DNA of 64,000 nt, taken from assembly GCA_025358085.1 (NCBI GenBank), contig JANYKT010000063.1, positions 1 to 64,000 of the forward strand. Direction: 5' to 3'. The notes under the pieces are model-generated. The model had not been told where the DNA came from, did not search any database, and was given only the letters and a program-made list of their open reading frames with translations. The position numbers and the translations under genes are program-made. Source of the DNA: Deltaproteobacteria bacterium (GTDB lineage: Bacteria > Myxococcota > Myxococcia > Myxococcales > 40CM-4-68-19). Of this stretch, positions 43,203 through 52,730 are shown in pieces. Position 1 is the first letter of the stretch, and every line of letters begins with the position of its first letter.

Positions 43203-45173
43203 TCAGGTGCCCGAAGCGCGCCGCCAGACATCGAGGACTGCTTCTCGAGTCAACACGCCGAGCGGCGCGCCCTCCGGGGAGAGCACCACTGCCGCAGTCG
43301 AGCCAGCCTCGCTGAGCCTGCGCAGCGCCGACTCGAGATCATCGTCGACTGCAACGCGCACTGCATCGGTGCGGGAAAAATCGCCTGCGACCGCGAGTTC
43401 GCGCAGGGCCGGGTCGAGCAGCGCCGCGCGCACCTCTCGCACCAGGAGGATGCCAATCAGGCTGCCCGCGGCCGAGACCACCGGGAACGCCGGGTGCTTC
43501 GTGTCCGAGACCAGCCGGACCAGCGCGTCCCAGCGCATTGATTCAGCAACGGGGGGAACAGCTTCGAGCGCCTGCGCGACAGAGAGTGCCCGCAGCGCCC
43601 GGTCGCGCGTGGACGCGGTGATGCCCTTTGCCTGCAGTTGCAGCGAGTAGAGAGACCCGCCCAAGAGCGCGTGCACCTGCGCCGCCGCGACTCCGCAGGC
43701 GAGCAGCAGCGGCAAGACGATGAAGTGACTGCCGGTCAGCTCGAACATCATCAGCACGCCCGTCAGCGGAGCAGAGGTGGCGCCCGCGACCACCGCGCCC
43801 ATGCCGACGGCGGCATAGGCCTCGGGTGTGGCGGCGATCTGCGGCGCGATCAGGTGCGCGACATAACCGAAGGCGCCGCCCAGCATCGCGCCGAGAAAGA
43901 CCGCGGGAAAGAAGCTGCCGCCGGGCGCGCCCGAGCCGAGCGTGAGCGCGGTCGCCAGCAGCTTGACCACCAGTGCGAGCAAGAGCGCCCCGAGCGCGAG
44001 CTGTCCGGCGAGGGCGCCGTTCAGCGACTCGATGCCGGTGCCGAGGGCGCGCGGAGCCAGCAGCCCAAGCAGCCCCACCAGGAGGCCTCCGATGGCGGGC
44101 CGCACCGCGACCGGCACGCTTCGCAGGCGGTCGAACAAGTGGTGCACGGCATCGATCGCACGAATGTATGCAAGAGCGACGAAGCCGGCGCAGAGGCCGA
44201 GGAGCAGGTAGAGACCCATCTCCAGCGGGCTTCCCTGGACCCACTGCGCGGCGTGCAGCACGGTCGCGTCCTGCAGCAGCGAATGCGAGGTGACGGTGGC
44301 CATCACGCAGGCAAGGACGATGGCGGCAAAGCCTCGGACGGTGAAGTCGCCGCCGAGCACGATCTCGACCGCGAAGAGTGAGCCTGCGAGCGGCGCCTGG
44401 AAGGAGGCGGCAATGCCGGCGCCGGCGCCGCAGGCGAGCAGCAGCACCGCTCGTTCACGCGGCAGTGAAAGATAGCGCGCGAGCGCGGCGGCCACTGCGC
44501 CACCCAGATGCACCACCGGTCCCTCGCGGCCGGCGCTCCCTCCGGAGCCGATGGTCAAGCCAGCCGCGATGGATTTCCAGAACGCCACGCGGCCGCGCAA
44601 CTGCTTGCGGGTATGGACCGCCTCGATCACTTCAAGCACGCCGTGGCCGGCGCTCTCGGGGCTGACGTAACGGACGATGGCGCCTGCCGCGAGCGCGCCT
44701 GCCGCGGGTGCGAGCACGATGACCCAGGAAGGTGCGTTGAGCAGCAGCGCGAACAGGCCGCCAGCGGTGTTGGAGAAACTGCCGTTAAAAGTCTGAATGA
44801 CCAGCAGCGGATAATACAGCGCGAGCCCGAAGGCGCCGGCGCGTGCCACCGAACGCAGTCTCTCTCCCTCGAAGTGGGGGATCAGGCGCCGCGCCGCCAC
44901 CATCGGGAGCGGCAGCGAGATCGCGAGTGTAGCTCCGGCCAGGAGCGCGAACTCGAGGTGCCAGTGGGCATGTTTGAGGTTCGCAGCGAAGCTGCGCGCG
45001 AAGCCCGGGGCCACGACGGTGTGCACCAGCTCGCTTGAATGGAACAGCGCGATCTGCGCCAGCCGGATGCAGGCAGCGAAAAGTCCGGCGGCGATGCCGG
45101 CATAGACGCCGACCACCGCGGCCACGGCCATGGCGACTGCTTCCTCCCACGCCACGCCTCGGATCGTCCGCAC
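43203..45173 (-). CDS. ClC-type chloride channel/antiporter with C-terminal CBS domains
   Basis: About 656 residues with 14-18 hydrophobic segments. Ion-pathway motifs are present: GSGGSAGREGP, where the gating Glu is in REGP, and the later GSGAPGGSFFPA. Two CBS-like domains follow (AESMRWDALVRLVSDTKHPAFPVV and ESALRRLSEAGSTAAVVL) and should bind adenine nucleotides. The start is uncertain: GTG 45173 is used, but an ATG about 14 codons downstream, with GGAGG 11 bases ahead, is an alternative. It is divergent from the MaoC gene. Confidence 0.9.
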   Translation of the reverse strand: MRTIRGVAWEEAVAMAVAAVVGVYAGIAAGLFAACIRLAQIALFHSSELVHTVVAPGFARSFAANLKHAHWHLEFALLAGATLAISLPLPMVAARRLIPHFEGERLRSVARAGAFGLALYYPLLVIQTFNGSFSNTAGGLFALLLNAPSWVIVLAPAAGALAAGAIVRYVSPESAGHGVLEVIEAVHTRKQLRGRVAFWKSIAAGLTIGSGGSAGREGPVVHLGGAVAAALARYLSLPRERAVLLLACGAGAGIAASFQAPLAGSLFAVEIVLGGDFTVRGFAAIVLACVMATVTSHSLLQDATVLHAAQWVQGSPLEMGLYLLLGLCAGFVALAYIRAIDAVHHLFDRLRSVPVAVRPAIGGLLVGLLGLLAPRALGTGIESLNGALAGQLALGALLLALVVKLLATALTLGSGAPGGSFFPAVFLGAMLGGAFGYVAHLIAPQIAATPEAYAAVGMGAVVAGATSAPLTGVLMMFELTGSHFIVLPLLLACGVAAAQVHALLGGSLYSLQLQAKGITASTRDRALRALSVAQALEAVPPVAESMRWDALVRLVSDTKHPAFPVVSAAGSLIGILLVREVRAALLDPALRELAVAGDFSRTDAVRVAVDDDLESALRRLSEAGSTAAVVLSPEGAPLGVLTREAVLDVWRRASGT

Positions 45174-45251
45174 GCGACGTTTCGTATCCGGCCGGCGGTG
45201 GCGCTGCAAGCTTCCCCCGCGCTAGAAGAAGCTCTTTTTGAGGAGGCGGAC

Positions 45252-45716
45252 TTGAAGACGACGATCGACGGAGTTGCCGGGCTGAAGGCGCTGGTGGGCA
45301 GGGAGCTGGGGAAGAGCGAATGGCGGTCGATGACCTACGACGCCATCGTCAAATTCGCCGACGCGACCGGCGACCACCAGTGGATCCATGTGGACCGCGA
45401 GCGCATCCAGCGCGAGTCGCCCTTCGGCGCGCCGGTCGCGCACGGCTACTTCTCGCTGTCGCTGATCGCCGGCCTTTTCTTCGAGCTGGTCGAGGTGAAG
45501 AACTTCGCGATGGTCATCAACTACGGGCTCAATAAGGTGCGCTTTCCGGCGCCGCTGAAGGAGGGCCAGAAGTATCGGCTTTCGGTGAAGCTGCTCGAGG
45601 TCAAAGAGGCTGGCAGCGCGTTGGAAGGCATTCTGACGGCGAGCATCGAGATCGAGGGCGAGGCGAAGCCCGCGTGCGCCGCCGAGCTGGTGTTTCGCTT
45701 CCTTGGCGGCGCTTAG
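45252..45716 (+). CDS. MaoC-like enoyl hydratase
   Basis: A 154-residue single-hotdog hydratase of the R-specific type. The catalytic Asp/His segment is FADATGDHQWIHVD, followed by APVAHGYFSLSLIAG. It hydrates 2-enoyl-CoA in fatty-acid or polyhydroxyalkanoate metabolism. TTG 45252 is chosen because GAGGAGG lies 6-9 bases upstream. A GC-rich imperfect hairpin (CGCGCCC/GGGCGCG) follows about 35 bases after the stop but lacks a T-run. Confidence 0.9.
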   Translation: MKTTIDGVAGLKALVGRELGKSEWRSMTYDAIVKFADATGDHQWIHVDRERIQRESPFGAPVAHGYFSLSLIAGLFFELVEVKNFAMVINYGLNKVRFPAPLKEGQKYRLSVKLLEVKEAGSALEGILTASIEIEGEAKPACAAELVFRFLGGA

Positions 45717-45873: not shown

Positions 45874-45981
45874 TTGTCTCAAGGCGGGTTCTGCTCCGGG
45901 ACCAGTCGCATTCCGCGGTCCGGCTTTCCTCGAAGTTGCGCGGCTCCTCCGCCGGGAGCAGCGCGAGACAAGGTGATCTCG

Positions 45982-47811
45982 GTGCCTGGGCAGAAGGTCG
46001 AGCTCGACCCACAAGCGTTCGAGTCAGGGACCTCGAGGCCGCTCAAGACGGGCGCCGAGTTCATCCTCGTGCTGCCGAAACACCGCTTCGTCTATCGCCA
46101 CTGGGACAAGGAAAACTATCTTCCGGGCGAAGAGGGAGAGCTGATCCTCGAGGGCAAGGGCCTCGGGAAGAAGCCCTACGACTTCATCATCGAGACGTCC
46201 GAAAACGAGGACGGCCCCTGGCTGCCGGTCAAGACGGTCAAGGCCAACGTCGATGGTGACAAGGCAACCGCGAAGTTCATTTTTCCCAAGCTTGAGCCCA
46301 AGGGCCACCTCACCAAAGCCGAGTGGAAGAGGCTCAAGGCAAAGCCCGAGGAACGTCTCGGCATGCACGTCGAGGCCAGTGGCTACGAAGGCGGCGGTCT
46401 CGACTTCGTGGTCGAAAAACAGGGCGCGGATGGCGAGTGGCATCCGTACTCGCGCTGGCAAGGAAACATCGACGCAGGCAAGGCCGATACGGTTTTCGCC
46501 ATCCCGGCAGGCAAGGCGAAGCCGGCGAAAAATCCGGACGCCAGGGTTGTCGAGCTGGCGTTCGATGGCGACCCGGAGGCGGGCGGCGTCGCCTGGCTTC
46601 TCGCGGAGACGAGCCATCTCGATTCAGAACAGATGAAGTTCGTCCTTGAGCGTGCCGACGAAAACGGCGACTGGCGCGAGCTCGGCGAGGGGGTCTCTAC
46701 CGTCAAGGATGGCGAGGCGCGCAACGGCATCAATGTTCCTGTGATCGTGTGCCAGGCCGGCAATCCCGATCCCGGCGGTATGGTGCCCATCGGGTTCAGC
46801 CACCCCCTCTACCGCAGGGGAGAGGAGCTGGTGGTTTACGTGGACCCAGGCTGGCTCAAGGGCGAGCAGTTCGAGGTTACGCTCGAGCGGCGAGTGATGA
46901 AGGGCAGCGAGCCTTGGAAGGAAGTCGCGGTCGTCGACGCGGAGCCGGTGAGTCCCACGGGCGCGGGCGGGGCGGGCGGCGGCGAGTCTGGCAGCGGCGG
47001 AACGGGCAGCGGCGAGTCTGGCAGCGGCGGAACGGGCAGCGGCGGAACGGGCAGCGGCGGAACTGGCAGCGGCGGGTCTGGCAGCGGCGGAACAGGCAGC
47101 GGCGGAACCGGTAGCGGCGGCTCTGGCAGCGGCGGAACCGGCAGCGGCGGAACTGGCAGCGGCGGAACTGGCAGCGGCGGAACTGGCAGCGGCGGAACCG
47201 GCAGCGGTGGAACTGGCAGCGGCGGAACCGGCAGCGGTGGAACCGGCAGCGGCGGAACCGGCAGCGGTGGAACCGGCAGCGGCGGCTCTGGCAGCGGCGG
47301 GACTGGCAGCGGCGGGACTGGCAGCGGCGGCGGTCCCGGCGGCGCAAGCAGCGGCGGCGGAACTGGCAGCGGCGGCGGTCCGGGCGGCGCAAGCAGTGGC
47401 GGCGGCGCGGGCGGAAGCGGCTCGGACGGATCCGGTGGCGGAACTGGCGGAAGCACGGGCTCCGGCGGAACAGGCGGACCCGGTGGCGGCAGCGCGGGGG
47501 CTACTGGCAGCGGAGCCGGCGGCGGCAGCGCGGGGGCTACTGGCAGCGGAGCCGGTGGCGGCAGCGCGGGGGCTACTGGCAGCGGAACCGGCGGCGCGGC
47601 GGGCGGCGCTGGCGCGGCGGCCTCGTCGGGCGCCGGCGGAACAGGTGCCAAAGGCGGCGGCCTTTCGGGGCTGGAGATCGGCGGTATCGTCGCAGGCGCA
47701 GGCGCGCTGGGCGCGGTCACCGCGGCGAGCGTGTCGGCTGCGGGGGATGCCAAGAAGACGGCCGACGACGCCGAAAAGAACGGCGACGACAGTGCCAAGG
47801 TCGAGGAATAG
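45982..47811 (+). CDS. Multimodular beta-sandwich protein with GSGGT-repeat linker and hydrophobic C-terminal segment
   Basis: 609 residues from GTG 45982, with AAGG 8 bases upstream (GTG 45973 is also possible). Residues 1-325 hold about four modules of 70-85 residues with a shared pattern: GEEGELILEGKG..., RLGMHVEASGYEGGGL..., VVELAFDGDPEAGG... and GEELVVYVDPGWLKGE.... Each is followed by a W or charged strand, as in Ig-like sandwiches. Then come about 23 GSGGT-type 5-residue repeats, two 15-residue Gly-rich repeats and three GGGSAGATGSG units. A hydrophobic segment (IGGIVAGAGALGAVTA) and an acidic tail end the chain. There is no signal peptide. The layout suggests a reader or binding head on a flexible tether. 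The family is unknown; linkage to the repeat protein 67 bases downstream is the best clue. Confidence 0.75.
   Translation: MPGQKVELDPQAFESGTSRPLKTGAEFILVLPKHRFVYRHWDKENYLPGEEGELILEGKGLGKKPYDFIIETSENEDGPWLPVKTVKANVDGDKATAKFIFPKLEPKGHLTKAEWKRLKAKPEERLGMHVEASGYEGGGLDFVVEKQGADGEWHPYSRWQGNIDAGKADTVFAIPAGKAKPAKNPDARVVELAFDGDPEAGGVAWLLAETSHLDSEQMKFVLERADENGDWRELGEGVSTVKDGEARNGINVPVIVCQAGNPDPGGMVPIGFSHPLYRRGEELVVYVDPGWLKGEQFEVTLERRVMKGSEPWKEVAVVDAEPVSPTGAGGAGGGESGSGGTGSGESGSGGTGSGGTGSGGTGSGGSGSGGTGSGGTGSGGSGSGGTGSGGTGSGGTGSGGTGSGGTGSGGTGSGGTGSGGTGSGGTGSGGTGSGGSGSGGTGSGGTGSGGGPGGASSGGGTGSGGGPGGASSGGGAGGSGSDGSGGGTGGSTGSGGTGGPGGGSAGATGSGAGGGSAGATGSGAGGGSAGATGSGTGGAAGGAGAAASSGAGGTGAKGGGLSGLEIGGIVAGAGALGAVTAASVSAAGDAKKTADDAEKNGDDSAKVEE
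46981..47335 (+). repeat. 15-bp tandem repeat encoding GSGGT, about 23 copies
   Basis: The unit is GGCAGCGGCGGAACC with third-base variants (aact, aacg) and occasional GSGGS or GSGES. The repeats keep the reading frame. Further downstream, 36-bp units encoding GGGSAGATGSGA occur three times (about 47482-47590). Such tracts are prone to slippage and should vary in copy number between strains. Confidence 0.9.
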
Positions 47812-47878
47812 CAGCACCCGATTTGACACCCGGTGCGCCGATGACGCGCACTCAAACCGGTACCGAAGGAGCCTTCCG

Positions 47879-50800
47879 ATGGCTGACGAAAAAGAACCGA
47901 AGAGCGACGATTCCGAGCCCGTGCAGCTCTACCGTTTCAAGGTCCGCACGGCCGATGGCCGCGAAATGACCAGCGCAGTCGCGGTGGTGGACCCGAACGC
48001 TGACGGGGACCTGGAGAACGACGCCGGCAATTCCCTCGAAGAACTCGAGGAGAAGCATAAGGCGGAAGGGAAGGAGCATGACTCCGATATCGCCAGTTGG
48101 CACAAGGACGAGCGGGAGGTCCACATGGACGACCTCGACGCGCACCATGGCGTCGAGACGGAGCGGCACGACGCTCATCTGGATAGCCAACACGAGACCG
48201 AAATCAAAAGTGACGAGCAGCAGCTCGACGGGAGCCATGCCGAGGAACTCGATCAGCACGAAACCCAGCTCGATGACGCGCACGAGAAGGAGCGCGAGCG
48301 CCTCGAGGTCGACCTTGACGACAAGCATCGCGACGAGCACGTGGCGGCTCACACGGAGCTGGACAAGAAGCACAACGGTGAGTTGGACCAGCACTCGAAT
48401 GAATCACTGAAGGCGCTGGAGGAGGAGCTGAAGAAGCAGGCGAGTCAGCTTGACGGCAAGCATCTGGAGGAACTCGCCAAGGCGGACAACGAGCTCATCG
48501 CGAAGCACCACGAGGAGCTGAAGAAGACCGAGGCCGAACTCGATCAGGCTTTTGACAAGTCCCACCACGAGGCCTTGACCGAGCTGGAGAAGAAGCACGT
48601 CGAGGAGCTGTCGAAGCAGGAAGAGGAGCTCGAGAAGCACCTCCACGAAGAGGTGCAACGGGCCCACGAGGAGCTGTCGCTCAAGCACAAGGAAGAAGAA
48701 GTCGAGCTCGAGAAGCAGCACGACGCCTCGCTTCTCGAAGCCCTCAAGAAGCATGACGAAGAAGGCGAGAAGGCCCTGACGGGGCGCCTCCACGAATTGG
48801 CTACGGGAATGGAGAAAAGGCTTGCGGAGGAACTCGCGAAGCTGAACCTGGATCACGACGGCAAGCTCGCCGGCGAGCTGAAGAAGCTCGAAGAAGAGGC
48901 AGAGAAGAAGCTTGAGGAGGCTCTCAAGAAGCACGACGAGGAGGGCGAGAAACTCCTGGCCGAGGAACTGAAGAAGCACGAGGAGGAGGGGGAGAAAGTA
49001 CTGGGCGATGAGCTGAAGAAGCTCGAAGACGAGACTGAGAAGGATCTCCAGGAGGAGTTGAAGAGCGCGACGGAGGAGCACGACAAGGAAGCCGAAGAGG
49101 AAGTGAACAAGAGCGACGAAGAGCTCGAAAAGGAGGAGCAGGAAGAGGCGGACAAGGACGACAGCGAGGCCCAGAAACAGGAGGACGAAGAGGCCGCCAA
49201 GGACGACGCCGAAGACGACAAGGCGCAGCAGGACGAAGAGCAGAAGGCCGAAGCCGAGGAAGAGAAGACCGCTGCTGATGAAGCCGCCAAAGCTGGCGCC
49301 GAGGCCGACCGGAAGGCCGACGAAGAGGCGAAGAAGGCCGAGGACGAGGCTGACAAAATCGCGGAGGACGAGGCAAAGAAGGCCGAGGACGACGCGCAGA
49401 AGGCCGCCGACGACGAGGCGGCCAAGCAGGAGCAGGACGCCGAAAAACAGTCGCAGGACGAGGTCAGCAAGCAGGAAAGCGACATCGACCAGCAGCACGC
49501 CGACGACGAGAACAAGCAGACCACCGACGCCGACGGCACGCACACCGACGACGAGCACAATCAGCTGAACGACATCTCCGGCCAGGAAGCGGGCGAGCTG
49601 CAGAAAGCCGATGCGGACAACGCGGACAAGCCGCAGGACGTGCGGACCCAGGCGTTCGACGCCATTCGCAAGAAGTTCAACGAACTGCGAATCAAGGTTC
49701 GCGACGAGATCAAGAAAAAGCTTGCGGAGGCGAAGACGAAGGTCCGCGAAGAGATCCGCAAGAAGATCGCCGAGGCCAAGAAGAAGGCCCGCGAGGAGGC
49801 GCTGAAGAAGTTGCTTGAGCTGAAGCAGAAGATTCGTGACGTGGCCAAGAAGAAGGCTGCCGAGGCTCGCAAGAAGGCGCGCGAGGAGGCGCGGAAGAAG
49901 GCCGCGGAAAAGAAGAAGCAGCTACGCGAGGAGCAGCAGAAGAAGTGCGCTGAAGCGAAAAAGAAGCGCGCGGAGGAGCAGCAGAAGAAGCGCGCCGAGC
50001 AAAAGGCGAAGCGGAAGGAGGAGGTGCGCAAGAAGAACGTTGAAGCGCGGAAGAAGAAGGCCGACGCGCGCAAGAAGAAGCACGCTGACGCGCGGAAGAA
50101 GAAGGCCGACGAGCGGAAGAAGAAGGCCGCCGACAAGAAGAAAGCGAAGGCGGAGGAGATTCGCAAGAAGCATCACGAGAAGCACGCCAAAAAGAAGGCG
50201 GAGATCCACCAGAAGCACCACGAAAAGCATCACGGCAAGAAGAAGGACATTCACCAGAAGCACCACGACGCGCACCAGCAGAAGACGCACGAGATGCGCG
50301 AGAAGCATCACCAGGCGCACAAGCAGAAGCGCGACGAGCACCACAAGAAGCACCAGGAAGAGCACCACAAGAAGAAGACGGAACTTCACGAGAAGCACCA
50401 CAAGGAGCACCAACAGAAGCGCGGCGAGCTTCACCAGAAGCACCGCGACGAGCACAGCCAGAAGCGCGGCGAGCTTCACCAGAAGCACCGCGACGAGCAC
50501 CACCAGAAGAAGCAGGAGGTGGACGGGAAACACCGCGAAGAGCACCACCAGAAGAAGCACGAGCTCCAGCAGAAGCATCACGAGCAGAAGCAGAAGAAGT
50601 CACACGAGCTCCACCAGAAGCACGACGAGCACACGCAGAAGAAGATCGCGGAGCACAAGCAGCGGCATCACGAGGAACGGCAGAAGAAGCAACACGAGGT
50701 CCGTCAGAAGCAACACGAGCAGAGGCAGAAGAAGCACGCCGATCTGCACAAGACGCACCACGAAGAGAAGCAGAAGCACCAGGGGAAGCTGCGCAAGGAG

Positions 50801-51301
50801 CATCACGAGGAGCACCAGAAGAAGCGCGTCGACGTGCACCAGAAGCACTTTGAACAGCGCAAGACGAAGGAGACCGACCTCCGCAAAAAGCACCAGAAAG
50901 AGAAGCACGAGAAGGTGACGCAATTGCACGGAGAGCACCACGAGAAGAAGCAAAAGCACCTCGCGGAGCACAGGCAGAAGCACGTTGAGAACAAGAAGAC
51001 CCATCTGGACGGCGTGAAGCAGAAGCAGGGCGACCAGAAGCAGAAGCACCTCGATGAGGTGAGGAAGAAGCAGGGCGAATCGAAGCAGAGGCAGCAGGAT
51101 GAGCTGCAGAAGCGCCAGGCGCAGGACAAGAAGGGCAAGGGCGACGCGCTCAAGAAGAGCCAGGGTGCTGAGGCGAAGCGACGCCAGGACACCCTCGGGC
51201 GCCAGCAGAAAGCGGAGCACGCGCGGCACAAGGAAGTGCTGCAGAAAAAGCAGACCCGGCAGTCCGCGCCGCGTCGCGCAACTGGCGGCCGGCACAAATA
51301 G
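47879..51301 (+). CDS. Giant 15-residue (pentadecad) repeat coiled-coil protein with opposite-charge halves
   Basis: 1140 residues from ATG 47879, with GAAGGAG 8 bases upstream. Residues 1-55 form a small beta domain (VQLYRFKVRTADGREMTSAV). Residues 56-1120 are 71 consecutive units of exactly 15 residues with no insertion or deletion, for example LEKKHVEELSKQEEE and LHQKHRDEHHQKKQE. The arithmetic closes: 55 + 71x15 + 20 = 1140. Units 1-35 are mostly acidic, unit 36 (NADKPQDVRTQAFDA) holds the only Pro of the array, and units 37-71 are basic. Core positions 1, 5, 8/9 and 12 carry Leu/Ile/Ala, replaced by His from about unit 48. One Cys (unit 43) and one Trp (unit 2) are seen. No signal peptide. 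The function is unknown; a filament, tether or long antiparallel hairpin is inferred. Confidence 0.85.
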   Translation: MADEKEPKSDDSEPVQLYRFKVRTADGREMTSAVAVVDPNADGDLENDAGNSLEELEEKHKAEGKEHDSDIASWHKDEREVHMDDLDAHHGVETERHDAHLDSQHETEIKSDEQQLDGSHAEELDQHETQLDDAHEKERERLEVDLDDKHRDEHVAAHTELDKKHNGELDQHSNESLKALEEELKKQASQLDGKHLEELAKADNELIAKHHEELKKTEAELDQAFDKSHHEALTELEKKHVEELSKQEEELEKHLHEEVQRAHEELSLKHKEEEVELEKQHDASLLEALKKHDEEGEKALTGRLHELATGMEKRLAEELAKLNLDHDGKLAGELKKLEEEAEKKLEEALKKHDEEGEKLLAEELKKHEEEGEKVLGDELKKLEDETEKDLQEELKSATEEHDKEAEEEVNKSDEELEKEEQEEADKDDSEAQKQEDEEAAKDDAEDDKAQQDEEQKAEAEEEKTAADEAAKAGAEADRKADEEAKKAEDEADKIAEDEAKKAEDDAQKAADDEAAKQEQDAEKQSQDEVSKQESDIDQQHADDENKQTTDADGTHTDDEHNQLNDISGQEAGELQKADADNADKPQDVRTQAFDAIRKKFNELRIKVRDEIKKKLAEAKTKVREEIRKKIAEAKKKAREEALKKLLELKQKIRDVAKKKAAEARKKAREEARKKAAEKKKQLREEQQKKCAEAKKKRAEEQQKKRAEQKAKRKEEVRKKNVEARKKKADARKKKHADARKKKADERKKKAADKKKAKAEEIRKKHHEKHAKKKAEIHQKHHEKHHGKKKDIHQKHHDAHQQKTHEMREKHHQAHKQKRDEHHKKHQEEHHKKKTELHEKHHKEHQQKRGELHQKHRDEHSQKRGELHQKHRDEHHQKKQEVDGKHREEHHQKKHELQQKHHEQKQKKSHELHQKHDEHTQKKIAEHKQRHHEERQKKQHEVRQKQHEQRQKKHADLHKTHHEEKQKHQGKLRKEHHEEHQKKRVDVHQKHFEQRKTKETDLRKKHQKEKHEKVTQLHGEHHEKKQKHLAEHRQKHVENKKTHLDGVKQKQGDQKQKHLDEVRKKQGESKQRQQDELQKRQAQDKKGKGDALKKSQGAEAKRRQDTLGRQQKAEHARHKEVLQKKQTRQSAPRRATGGRHK
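48044..51238 (+). repeat. 71-copy 45-bp coding repeat array (15 residues per unit)
   Basis: The reading-frame period of 45 bp holds from 48044 to 51238 without a single indel. Most units have diverged at the DNA level. Copies at 50417-50461 and 50462-50506 differ at only 2 of 45 bases, showing growth by unit duplication. The consensus in the basic half is close to L-H-Q-K-H-H-E-E-H-Q-K-K-x-x-E. Confidence 0.88.
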
Positions 51302-51325
51302 GCGGGCTTTCAAGCTCTGGTCGAT

Positions 51326-51383: not shown

Positions 51384-52730
51384 GTGCGCTACCGCGAGTA
51401 CAACTTCGACGGGCTGGTGGGGCCGACGCACAACTACGCCGGTCTTTCGCGCGGCAACGTGGCCTCGCTGACCCATGCAGGGCAGGCCGCCAATCCGCGG
51501 CGGGCCGCGCTGCAAGGGCTCGAGAAGATGCGGCTGGTGGCCTCACTCGGCGTGGGGCAGGCAGTGCTTCCGCCGCAAGAGCGCCCGTCGTTGCGGACCC
51601 TGCGCCGGCTGGGCTTTCGAGGATCGGACGAGGAGGTCCTCGCGCAGGCGGCAAGCGATCCGGATTCGCGCGATCAGCTTCTGCGCCTCACCTCGAGCGC
51701 GGCGGCCATGTGGACCGCGAACGCCGCGACTTGCGTCCCCTCCTGCGACAGCGAGGACGCAAGGCTGCACTTGATCCCCGCGAACCTCACGGCGATGTTT
51801 CACCGTGCGCTCGAGGCCGGGACGACGACCACCGTTCTGCGCAGGATCTTCGCCGACCCGGCGCGCTTCGCGGTTCATGATCCGCTGCCGGGCGGCGCGC
51901 AATTCTCTGATGAGGGCGCGGCCAATCACACCCGGCTGTCTGCCGAAGGCGCAAAAGGAGTGCACCTCTTCGCCTGGGGTCGCCGGGCCTTCGGCGGTCC
52001 CGCGCCTGCCGGTGAGCCGCAACGCTGGCCGGCGCGGCAGACGCTCGAGTCTTCGCAGGCGCTGGCGCGACTCGGTCGCGTGGCACCGGCGCAGGCGCTT
52101 TTTCCCCAGCAGCATCCGGCAGGCATCGACGCGGGGGCCTTCCACACCGACGTGCTCGCGGTCGGCACCGGCAACCTGTTGCTCCTGCATCAACTGGCGT
52201 TCGTCGATCACGAGGCGCTCCTTGCCCGGCTGCGCGCACTGGTGCCCGGCTTCACGGCCGTCGTCGCCACCGAAGAGGAGTTGCCCGTGAGCGCGGCGAT
52301 CAAGGCCTATCCCTTCAACTCGCAGTTGCTCACGCTGCCCGACGGGAGCATGGCCTTGCTGGCTCCCGACGAATCGCGGCAAGAGCCTCACGCGCGCGCT
52401 TTTCTCGAGCGGCTCCCGGGCGTGAAAATTCACTACCTCGCCCTCGGCGACTCGATGCAGAACGGAGGCGGCCCCGCTTGCCTGCGGCAGCGCATCCTGC
52501 TCTCCGACGACGAGCGCGCGGCAGTGACGGCGCGCGTCTTCTGGGACGAGCCGCTGGGGAGCGAGTTGGAGGCGTGGGTCGCGCGGCACTATCGCGACCG
52601 CCTGGTGGGCGACGACCTACGAGACCCGCTGCTGGCGCGCGAGACGCTCACCGCCCTCGATGAGCTGACGCAGATGCTCCAGCTCGGCGCGGTCTACGAT
52701 TTCCAGCGCCTGGACAGCCGGTCTTTCTAA
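51384..52730 (+). CDS. astB: N-succinylarginine dihydrolase
   Basis: A 448-residue protein matching AstB in length and sequence: EYNFDGLVGPTHNYAGLSRGN, MWTANAATCVPSCDSED, NHTRLSAEGAKGVHLFAWGR, GAFHTDVLAVGTGNLLLLHQ and QNGGGPACLRQRI with the catalytic Cys. It hydrolyses N2-succinylarginine to succinylornithine, CO2 and ammonia in the arginine succinyltransferase pathway. No astCADE genes lie nearby. GTG 51384 is chosen because TTG 51366 lies inside the upstream terminator. Confidence 0.95.
   Translation: MRYREYNFDGLVGPTHNYAGLSRGNVASLTHAGQAANPRRAALQGLEKMRLVASLGVGQAVLPPQERPSLRTLRRLGFRGSDEEVLAQAASDPDSRDQLLRLTSSAAAMWTANAATCVPSCDSEDARLHLIPANLTAMFHRALEAGTTTTVLRRIFADPARFAVHDPLPGGAQFSDEGAANHTRLSAEGAKGVHLFAWGRRAFGGPAPAGEPQRWPARQTLESSQALARLGRVAPAQALFPQQHPAGIDAGAFHTDVLAVGTGNLLLLHQLAFVDHEALLARLRALVPGFTAVVATEEELPVSAAIKAYPFNSQLLTLPDGSMALLAPDESRQEPHARAFLERLPGVKIHYLALGDSMQNGGGPACLRQRILLSDDERAAVTARVFWDEPLGSELEAWVARHYRDRLVGDDLRDPLLARETLTALDELTQMLQLGAVYDFQRLDSRSF

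Follow-up and report, generated by a model that had tools for sequence, protein, structure and literature searches.

A myxobacterial pentadecad protein with two oppositely charged arms: a candidate electrostatic hairpin in a putatively phage-tail-related setting

What kind of protein carries a 15-residue unit 71 times in a single phase, and what would it serve for? This question is raised by a gene, denoted Y here, in a 64,000-nucleotide stretch of DNA from an uncultured member of the Myxococcales (the whole stretch is called the window). Y is preceded by a second gene, denoted X (Table 1); genomes are cited by G numbers.

Table 1. Features of the X-Y locus; coordinates refer to the window
Feature	Coordinates	Strand	Remarks
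MaoC-like dehydratase gene	45132..45716	+	conserved left neighbour of X-Y; start inferred
Gene X	45973..47811	+	67 bases 5' of Y; GTG start inferred
X-domain 1 of gene X	46099..46278	+	
X-domain 2 of gene X	46309..46503	+	strongest
X-domain 3 of gene X	46552..46737	+	
15-base tandem repeat	46988..47375	+	25.9 copies; codes for Gly/Ser/Thr linker of gene X
Gene Y	47879..51301	+	pentadecad protein, 1140 aa; frame open in all homologues
N-module	47879..48007	+	residues 1-43; predicted beta-hairpin at 17-36; common to Hcp2 and small X-domain proteins
Acidic arm	48044..49618	+	units 1-35, residues 56-580
Turn unit 36	49619..49663	+	residues 581-595, NADKPQDVRTQAFDA; predicted helix break
Basic, His-rich arm	49664..51238	+	units 37-71, residues 596-1120
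C-terminal tail	51239..51298	+	residues 1121-1140, ...APRRATGGRHK
Succinylarginine dihydrolase gene astB	51384..52730	+	conserved right neighbour of X-Y; start inferred

Reading frame and register of Y

Gene Y starts with an ATG at 47879 that has the sequence GAAGGAG a few bases 5'. A simple codon-based caller favoured Leu-rich frames on the opposite strand (window 47852-51313, -) and was misled over this Lys/Glu-rich gene. Antisense coding is rejected because these frames are interrupted in both long homologues as well as in the window, the forward frame is open in the window and in all homologues, and the N-module is conserved. Laid out by 15, the product reads 55 + 71x15 + 20 with zero indels, the units spanning residues 56-1120 (48044-51238), which agrees to the residue with the one-phase layout of the initial annotation.

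The periodogram of hydrophobic residues (ILMVFWY) peaks at 3.749 residues, with a power of 54.9 at 3.75 and noise-level values at 3.5 (0.6), 3.6 (0.5), and 3.667 (1.5); the proposed Fourier analysis of hydrophobicity thus favours 15/4. Counting His raises the power at 3.75 to 98.8 (33 of the 108 His residues occupy position 5), and the acidic and basic residues show a period peak at 7.5, i.e. 15/2. The register claimed for the array is indeed strict: the 3.75 phase stays between 53 and 119 degrees throughout, and identity at lag 15 amounts to 0.418, whereas local shuffling gives 0.142 ± 0.010, with 0.172 as the highest of 500 values. Adjacent units resemble each other more than far-apart units, and pN/pS is ~0.7 in the arms. 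Opposite charges four residues apart (i+4) form 241 pairs vs 124 ± 9 after shuffling, like charges 72 vs 157 ± 9.

The stripe of Y lies at positions 9, 12, 1, and 5. Pentadecad coiled coils place their hydrophobic residues at a-d-h-l with a spacing of 3-4-4-4 (PMC9858780). The 4-4-3-4 stripe of Y (1, 5, 9, 12) is this published pattern read from position 9, so the coil type is already known. In theory, a 15/4 coil is right-handed, with a supercoil magnitude about that of the left-handed heptad coil (PMC9858780, PMC4786415). The right-handed supercoil predicted earlier for Y as a pentadecad follows from this theory and would apply by analogy. The accompanying statement that no described family has this design stands for Y itself, since neither Y nor X has a match in Pfam, NCBIfam, PHROGs, or PDB sequences, but not for pentadecad coiled coils, which are a described class.

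Genome searches recovered homologues of Y in its own family only, namely two long proteins of 959 aa (G007) and 1170 aa (G003) and a short one of 481 aa (G005). None was found in addition in the fragmented genomes, where several contigs end inside gene X. The G003 protein is 27% identical and less charged, and its power at 3.75 is still 65.6. The excess of i+4 opposite-charge pairs recurs in G007 (338 vs 163 ± 9 shuffled) and in G003 (139 vs 69 ± 6). The C-terminal end reads APRRATGGRHK in the window and APKKAAGGKHK in the G007 copy. Frequent phase breaks among homologues, named earlier as the mark of an ordinary charged helix, do not characterize the long copies: G003 is in phase, and each arm of G007 keeps its register, with the only jump at the arm boundary, beside Pro495. 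The short G005 copy, however, drifts in phase and has unbalanced arms. Of the suggested selection for length and phase, the part on phase is consistent with the kept register, but one fixed length is not supported, the proteins measuring 481, 959, 1140, and 1170 aa. The long homologues keep the register and the equality of their two arms, not one fixed length.

Two arms of opposite charge

Turn unit 36 (NADKPQDVRTQAFDA) contains the only Pro of the array (Pro585), and here the composition switches from acid to base. The cumulative charge of Y turns at residue 583, separating arms of 528 and 557 residues with net charges of -112 and +93. The columns differ accordingly between the arms. In units 1-35, positions 1 and 9 hold Leu/Ala/Ile, position 5 His/Leu, and position 12 Ala/His/Leu, and many positions are acidic. 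Units 37-71 are rich in Lys/His and keep the stripe only at 1 (Leu/Ile/Val) and 5 (His), 9 and 12 being basic. The stripe initially assigned to positions 1, 5, 8/9, and 12 therefore describes the array overall but is weaker in units 37-71, with K/H/R predominating at 9 and 12. The earlier picture of one continuous coil of ~160 nm is not supported: Pro and the charge switch at the midpoint divide the array into two arms of 35 units, which would measure ~79 nm if folded back.

The same division is found in the long homologues. In G007 the charge switches at residue 484 between arms of 429 and 475 residues (net -79 and +76), each about six units shorter than in the window. In G003 it switches at residue 608 between arms of 553 and 562 residues (net -72 and +58), and no Pro is present at the switch. 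Abundant His is not a conserved trait of the basic arm: G007 has few such residues.

Structure prediction by AlphaFold2 was poor for full-length Y (pLDDT 59, pTM 0.23), with a beta-hairpin (17-36), helices beginning at residue 53, the longest break at 545-585, and further low-confidence breaks. The central 240 residues (466-705) were modelled at pLDDT 92 and pTM 0.60 as helices 467-580 and 586-704, with the break predicted at 581-585. No match in a fold comparison reached E 0.001; among the non-significant ones are fold-back hairpins (chemoreceptor, Smc) and phage tape measures.

Charge is also distributed in a mirrored manner along the two arms. Summed over successive blocks of 45 residues away from the Pro unit, the acidic side of the window protein carries -11 -10 -11 -17 -12 -6 -6 -5 -6 -6 -14 and the basic side +8 +11 +11 +15 +6 +6 +1 +5 +5 +6 +5. 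The corresponding series of G007 are -8 -11 -12 -9 -8 -4 -2 -9 -9 vs +8 +10 +12 +10 +8 +3 +2 +5 +6. In 30-residue steps, the mirror correlation is r -0.66 (p 0.003) for the window and r -0.86 (p<0.001) for G007, where p stems from shuffles that ignore autocorrelation; in G003 it is weak (r -0.34, p 0.09). It is best with the centre at the Pro unit, and parallel pairing of the arms yields a positive r. Mirroring counts as good evidence short of proof, because circular shifts give a p of only ~0.03, close to the lowest value which that test can return, and because the homologues share ancestry. Hydrophobic, Ala, or Gln content gave no consistent mirror signal between the arms. Mirrored charge is expected of antiparallel pairing, and a hairpin and an antiparallel dimer both predict it.

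Locus and a probable phage-tail-related protein set

Gene X encodes three clear copies and one weak copy of a domain of ~67 residues (the X-domain), a long Gly/Ser/Thr linker, and a short hydrophobic/acidic tail. Tandem repeats of 15 and 36 bases lie inside it (window 46988-47596), and the assemblies of several relatives end in gene X. As a query on its own, gene X found nothing in named genomes. The order MaoC-X-Y-astB is conserved in G003 and G005; G007 has MaoC-X and Y-astB on separate contigs, and G006 and G010 have MaoC-X. In five sister genomes (G001, G002, G004, G008, G009) the site is empty, MaoC directly adjoining astB, and no X-domain was detected anywhere in these five. Within the class sample, X-domains are confined to the seven genomes that carry gene X, and X-domain genes elsewhere in a genome co-occur all-or-none with gene X.

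The N-module of Y, with the motif YRFxVRTADGxExxSxVAxV, also starts Hcp-family tube proteins (PF05638) in G000:C68, G007, G010, and G011, as well as small single-X-domain proteins in G005 (there adjoining two gp19-type tube genes), G006, and G003. The X-domain, which has no Pfam match, extends VgrG-related hub proteins of ~990 aa in G003 as tandem copies (7 in L028 4872-7856, at least 4 in L112 16300-19257). An orphan pair of Hcp-family tube genes at L026 6690-7813 (G000:C68) has an X-type gene upstream and a Y-type N-module on the second Hcp; its genome has no type VI sheath. Single X-domain genes adjoin enzyme-like genes at L079 2256-4726, L115 7080-8830, and L116 2649-5534. The neighbour in L115 is a DSP phosphatase with polymorphic-toxin matches, and those in L116 and L079 look similar; these X-domain genes are placed as adaptors next to effectors would be.

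A type VI secretion system was considered and rejected, as a TssC/VipB sheath occurs in 0 of the 12 family genomes by a search that detects the E. coli control. A sheath match is present in 9 of the 12, genomes negative for X-Y included, and most of these have an eCIS-type sheath gene pair. A direct tie of X-Y to eCIS is likewise rejected, the sheath genes being independent of X-Y across the 12 genomes. The window genome has an eCIS on another contig than Y, and Y does not lie within a tube, sheath, or hub operon but between MaoC and astB. A repetitive, helix-rich-looking ORF of 3791 aa with a Pro/Ala/Ser-rich tail (L063 5-11380, G003:C24) is situated directly upstream of eCIS sheath genes. 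For Y, Pfam and NCBIfam gave no LEA family match and no YadA-type C-terminal membrane anchor or head domains, and no export or anchor domain was found. A phage or viral origin was discarded after phage records and viral contigs yielded no match.

We read the N-module, the X-domain, the orphan Hcp pairs, and the VgrG-like hubs as a lineage-restricted, phage-tail-related set, of which Y would be the long rod. This small set looks like an undescribed phage-tail-derived system, for which the precise empty sites provide a comparison.

Proposed architecture, rivals, and known systems

The reading that combines these observations, to which we assign about an even chance, takes Y for a stiff electrostatic helical hairpin of ~79 nm that would serve as rod or spacer in a phage-tail-related apparatus restricted to this lineage. 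Each 15-residue unit would form four helical turns held by i to i+4 salt bridges along the helix and carry a weak stripe of Leu, Ile, and His that recurs at intervals of 3.75 residues. At a turn of Pro, Asn, and Asp (residues 581-585), the acidic arm (35 units) would fold onto the basic arm (35 units), and the arms would pair antiparallel by opposite charge to give a gently right-handed two-helix hairpin, ~79 nm long (35 x 15 x 0.15 nm). The N- and C-termini would then meet at the hairpin base, where the beta-hairpin N-module may dock on a partner; candidates are the product of gene X, a tube protein of the Hcp/gp19 type, and a VgrG-like hub. As spacer or stalk, the rod would belong to an apparatus restricted to part of this myxobacterial family. 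A more specific and clearly less probable version considers Y a self-complementary electrostatic pentadecad hairpin ruler of an undescribed class, whose arms lengthen and shorten together and which serves a lineage-specific, phage-tail-derived apparatus (N-module/X-domain) with no type VI sheath.

The closest rival retains the antiparallel pairing and places it between molecules: the chain would stay extended (~160 nm), and each acidic half would pair with the basic half of another copy, in a homodimer or half-staggered fibre. Halves of equal size and opposite charge, together with the mirroring, suit this arrangement no less than the hairpin, and the missing Pro at the switch of G003 speaks for it. 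Against it stand the Pro that the window protein and G007 both place at the switch, the position of G007's only phase jump, and the helix break modelled at 581-585; we consider it possible but well behind the hairpin. Y would be a single-alpha-helix (ER/K-type) rod or a charged low-complexity polymer, its arms without specific pairing and its 15-mer a by-product of unit duplication, if the very strong i+4 opposite-charge pairing, the weak stripe of the basic arm, the likeness of adjacent units, and the pN/pS of ~0.7 in the arms were decisive. A pure ER/K helix, however, has no need of a 3.75 hydrophobic period, which the less charged, 27% identical G003 protein retains at a power of 65.6, and equal arms with mirrored charge are against such a rod as well; it is considered unlikely.

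Both remaining explanations concern function. An N-module common to tube-type proteins, an eCIS encoded elsewhere in the genome, and phage tape measures among the weak fold matches could make Y the tape measure or lumen-filling cargo of that eCIS. This is improbable given that sister genomes without X-Y have sheath genes too, that Y lies outside the eCIS cluster, and that PHROG and Pfam return no tape-measure match, the fold matches all being non-significant. Least credible, and barely worth retaining, is a LEA-like desiccation protectant or His-rich metal/pH buffer, as could be imagined for a helical chain rich in K/E/Q/H (108 His, 33 at position 5) with some relatives among what we take to be soil-type MAGs. 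The lack of a LEA family match, the lack of conservation of the many His residues in the basic arm (few in G007), and the N-module shared with tail-tube proteins all oppose it.

We know of no earlier description of the array length, salt-bridge design, and layout of Y. If the hairpin is real, Y would be the longest uninterrupted pentadecad array that we know of and a rod from nature whose pairing is encoded chiefly by charge; both the theory and the design of coiled coils could draw on it. It would predict right-handed antiparallel coils that rely on salt bridges, not on a greasy core.

Compared with known systems, Y shares the 15-residue period and the 3-4-4-4 spacing with the stalks of YadA-type trimeric autotransporters and with Ena/VASP tetramerisation domains. 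Those pentadecads are parallel trimers or tetramers, short or situated in surface stalks, whereas Y has 71 units, is highly charged, and is divided into two oppositely charged arms. ER/K single-alpha-helix domains alternate basic and acidic residues one turn apart and show strong i to i+4 opposite-charge pairing. This pairing also occurs in Y, but ER/K helices have no regular hydrophobic stripe, while Y has a stripe of hydrophobic residues and His with a period of 3.75, fainter in its basic arm, a charge period of 7.5 residues, and a charge split into equal halves. The proposed structure, a hairpin of two long helices folded back on each other around a turn at the tip, resembles the arms of Smc/Rad50 and the cytoplasmic domain of chemoreceptors. 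Those hairpins are of heptad type; Y has no sequence relation to them, and its pairing appears mainly electrostatic. Scy is a bacterial rod of >1000 residues with a non-heptad repeat (PMC9858780); the hendecad rods Scy/FilP differ from Y in their 11-residue repeat, a DivIVA-type N-terminus, and a function in Gram-positive cell division and polarity. The effector pair Sle1/Sle2 belongs to a Streptomyces phage-tail-like particle (PMC13277306). There, too, a long helical protein occurs, and a partner encoded by a neighbouring gene is thought to link it to the tube or hub of the contractile system. Sle2, however, has a DUF4157, and the C-terminal domain of Sle1 is globular and functional; Y lacks both, and X has a domain type of its own.
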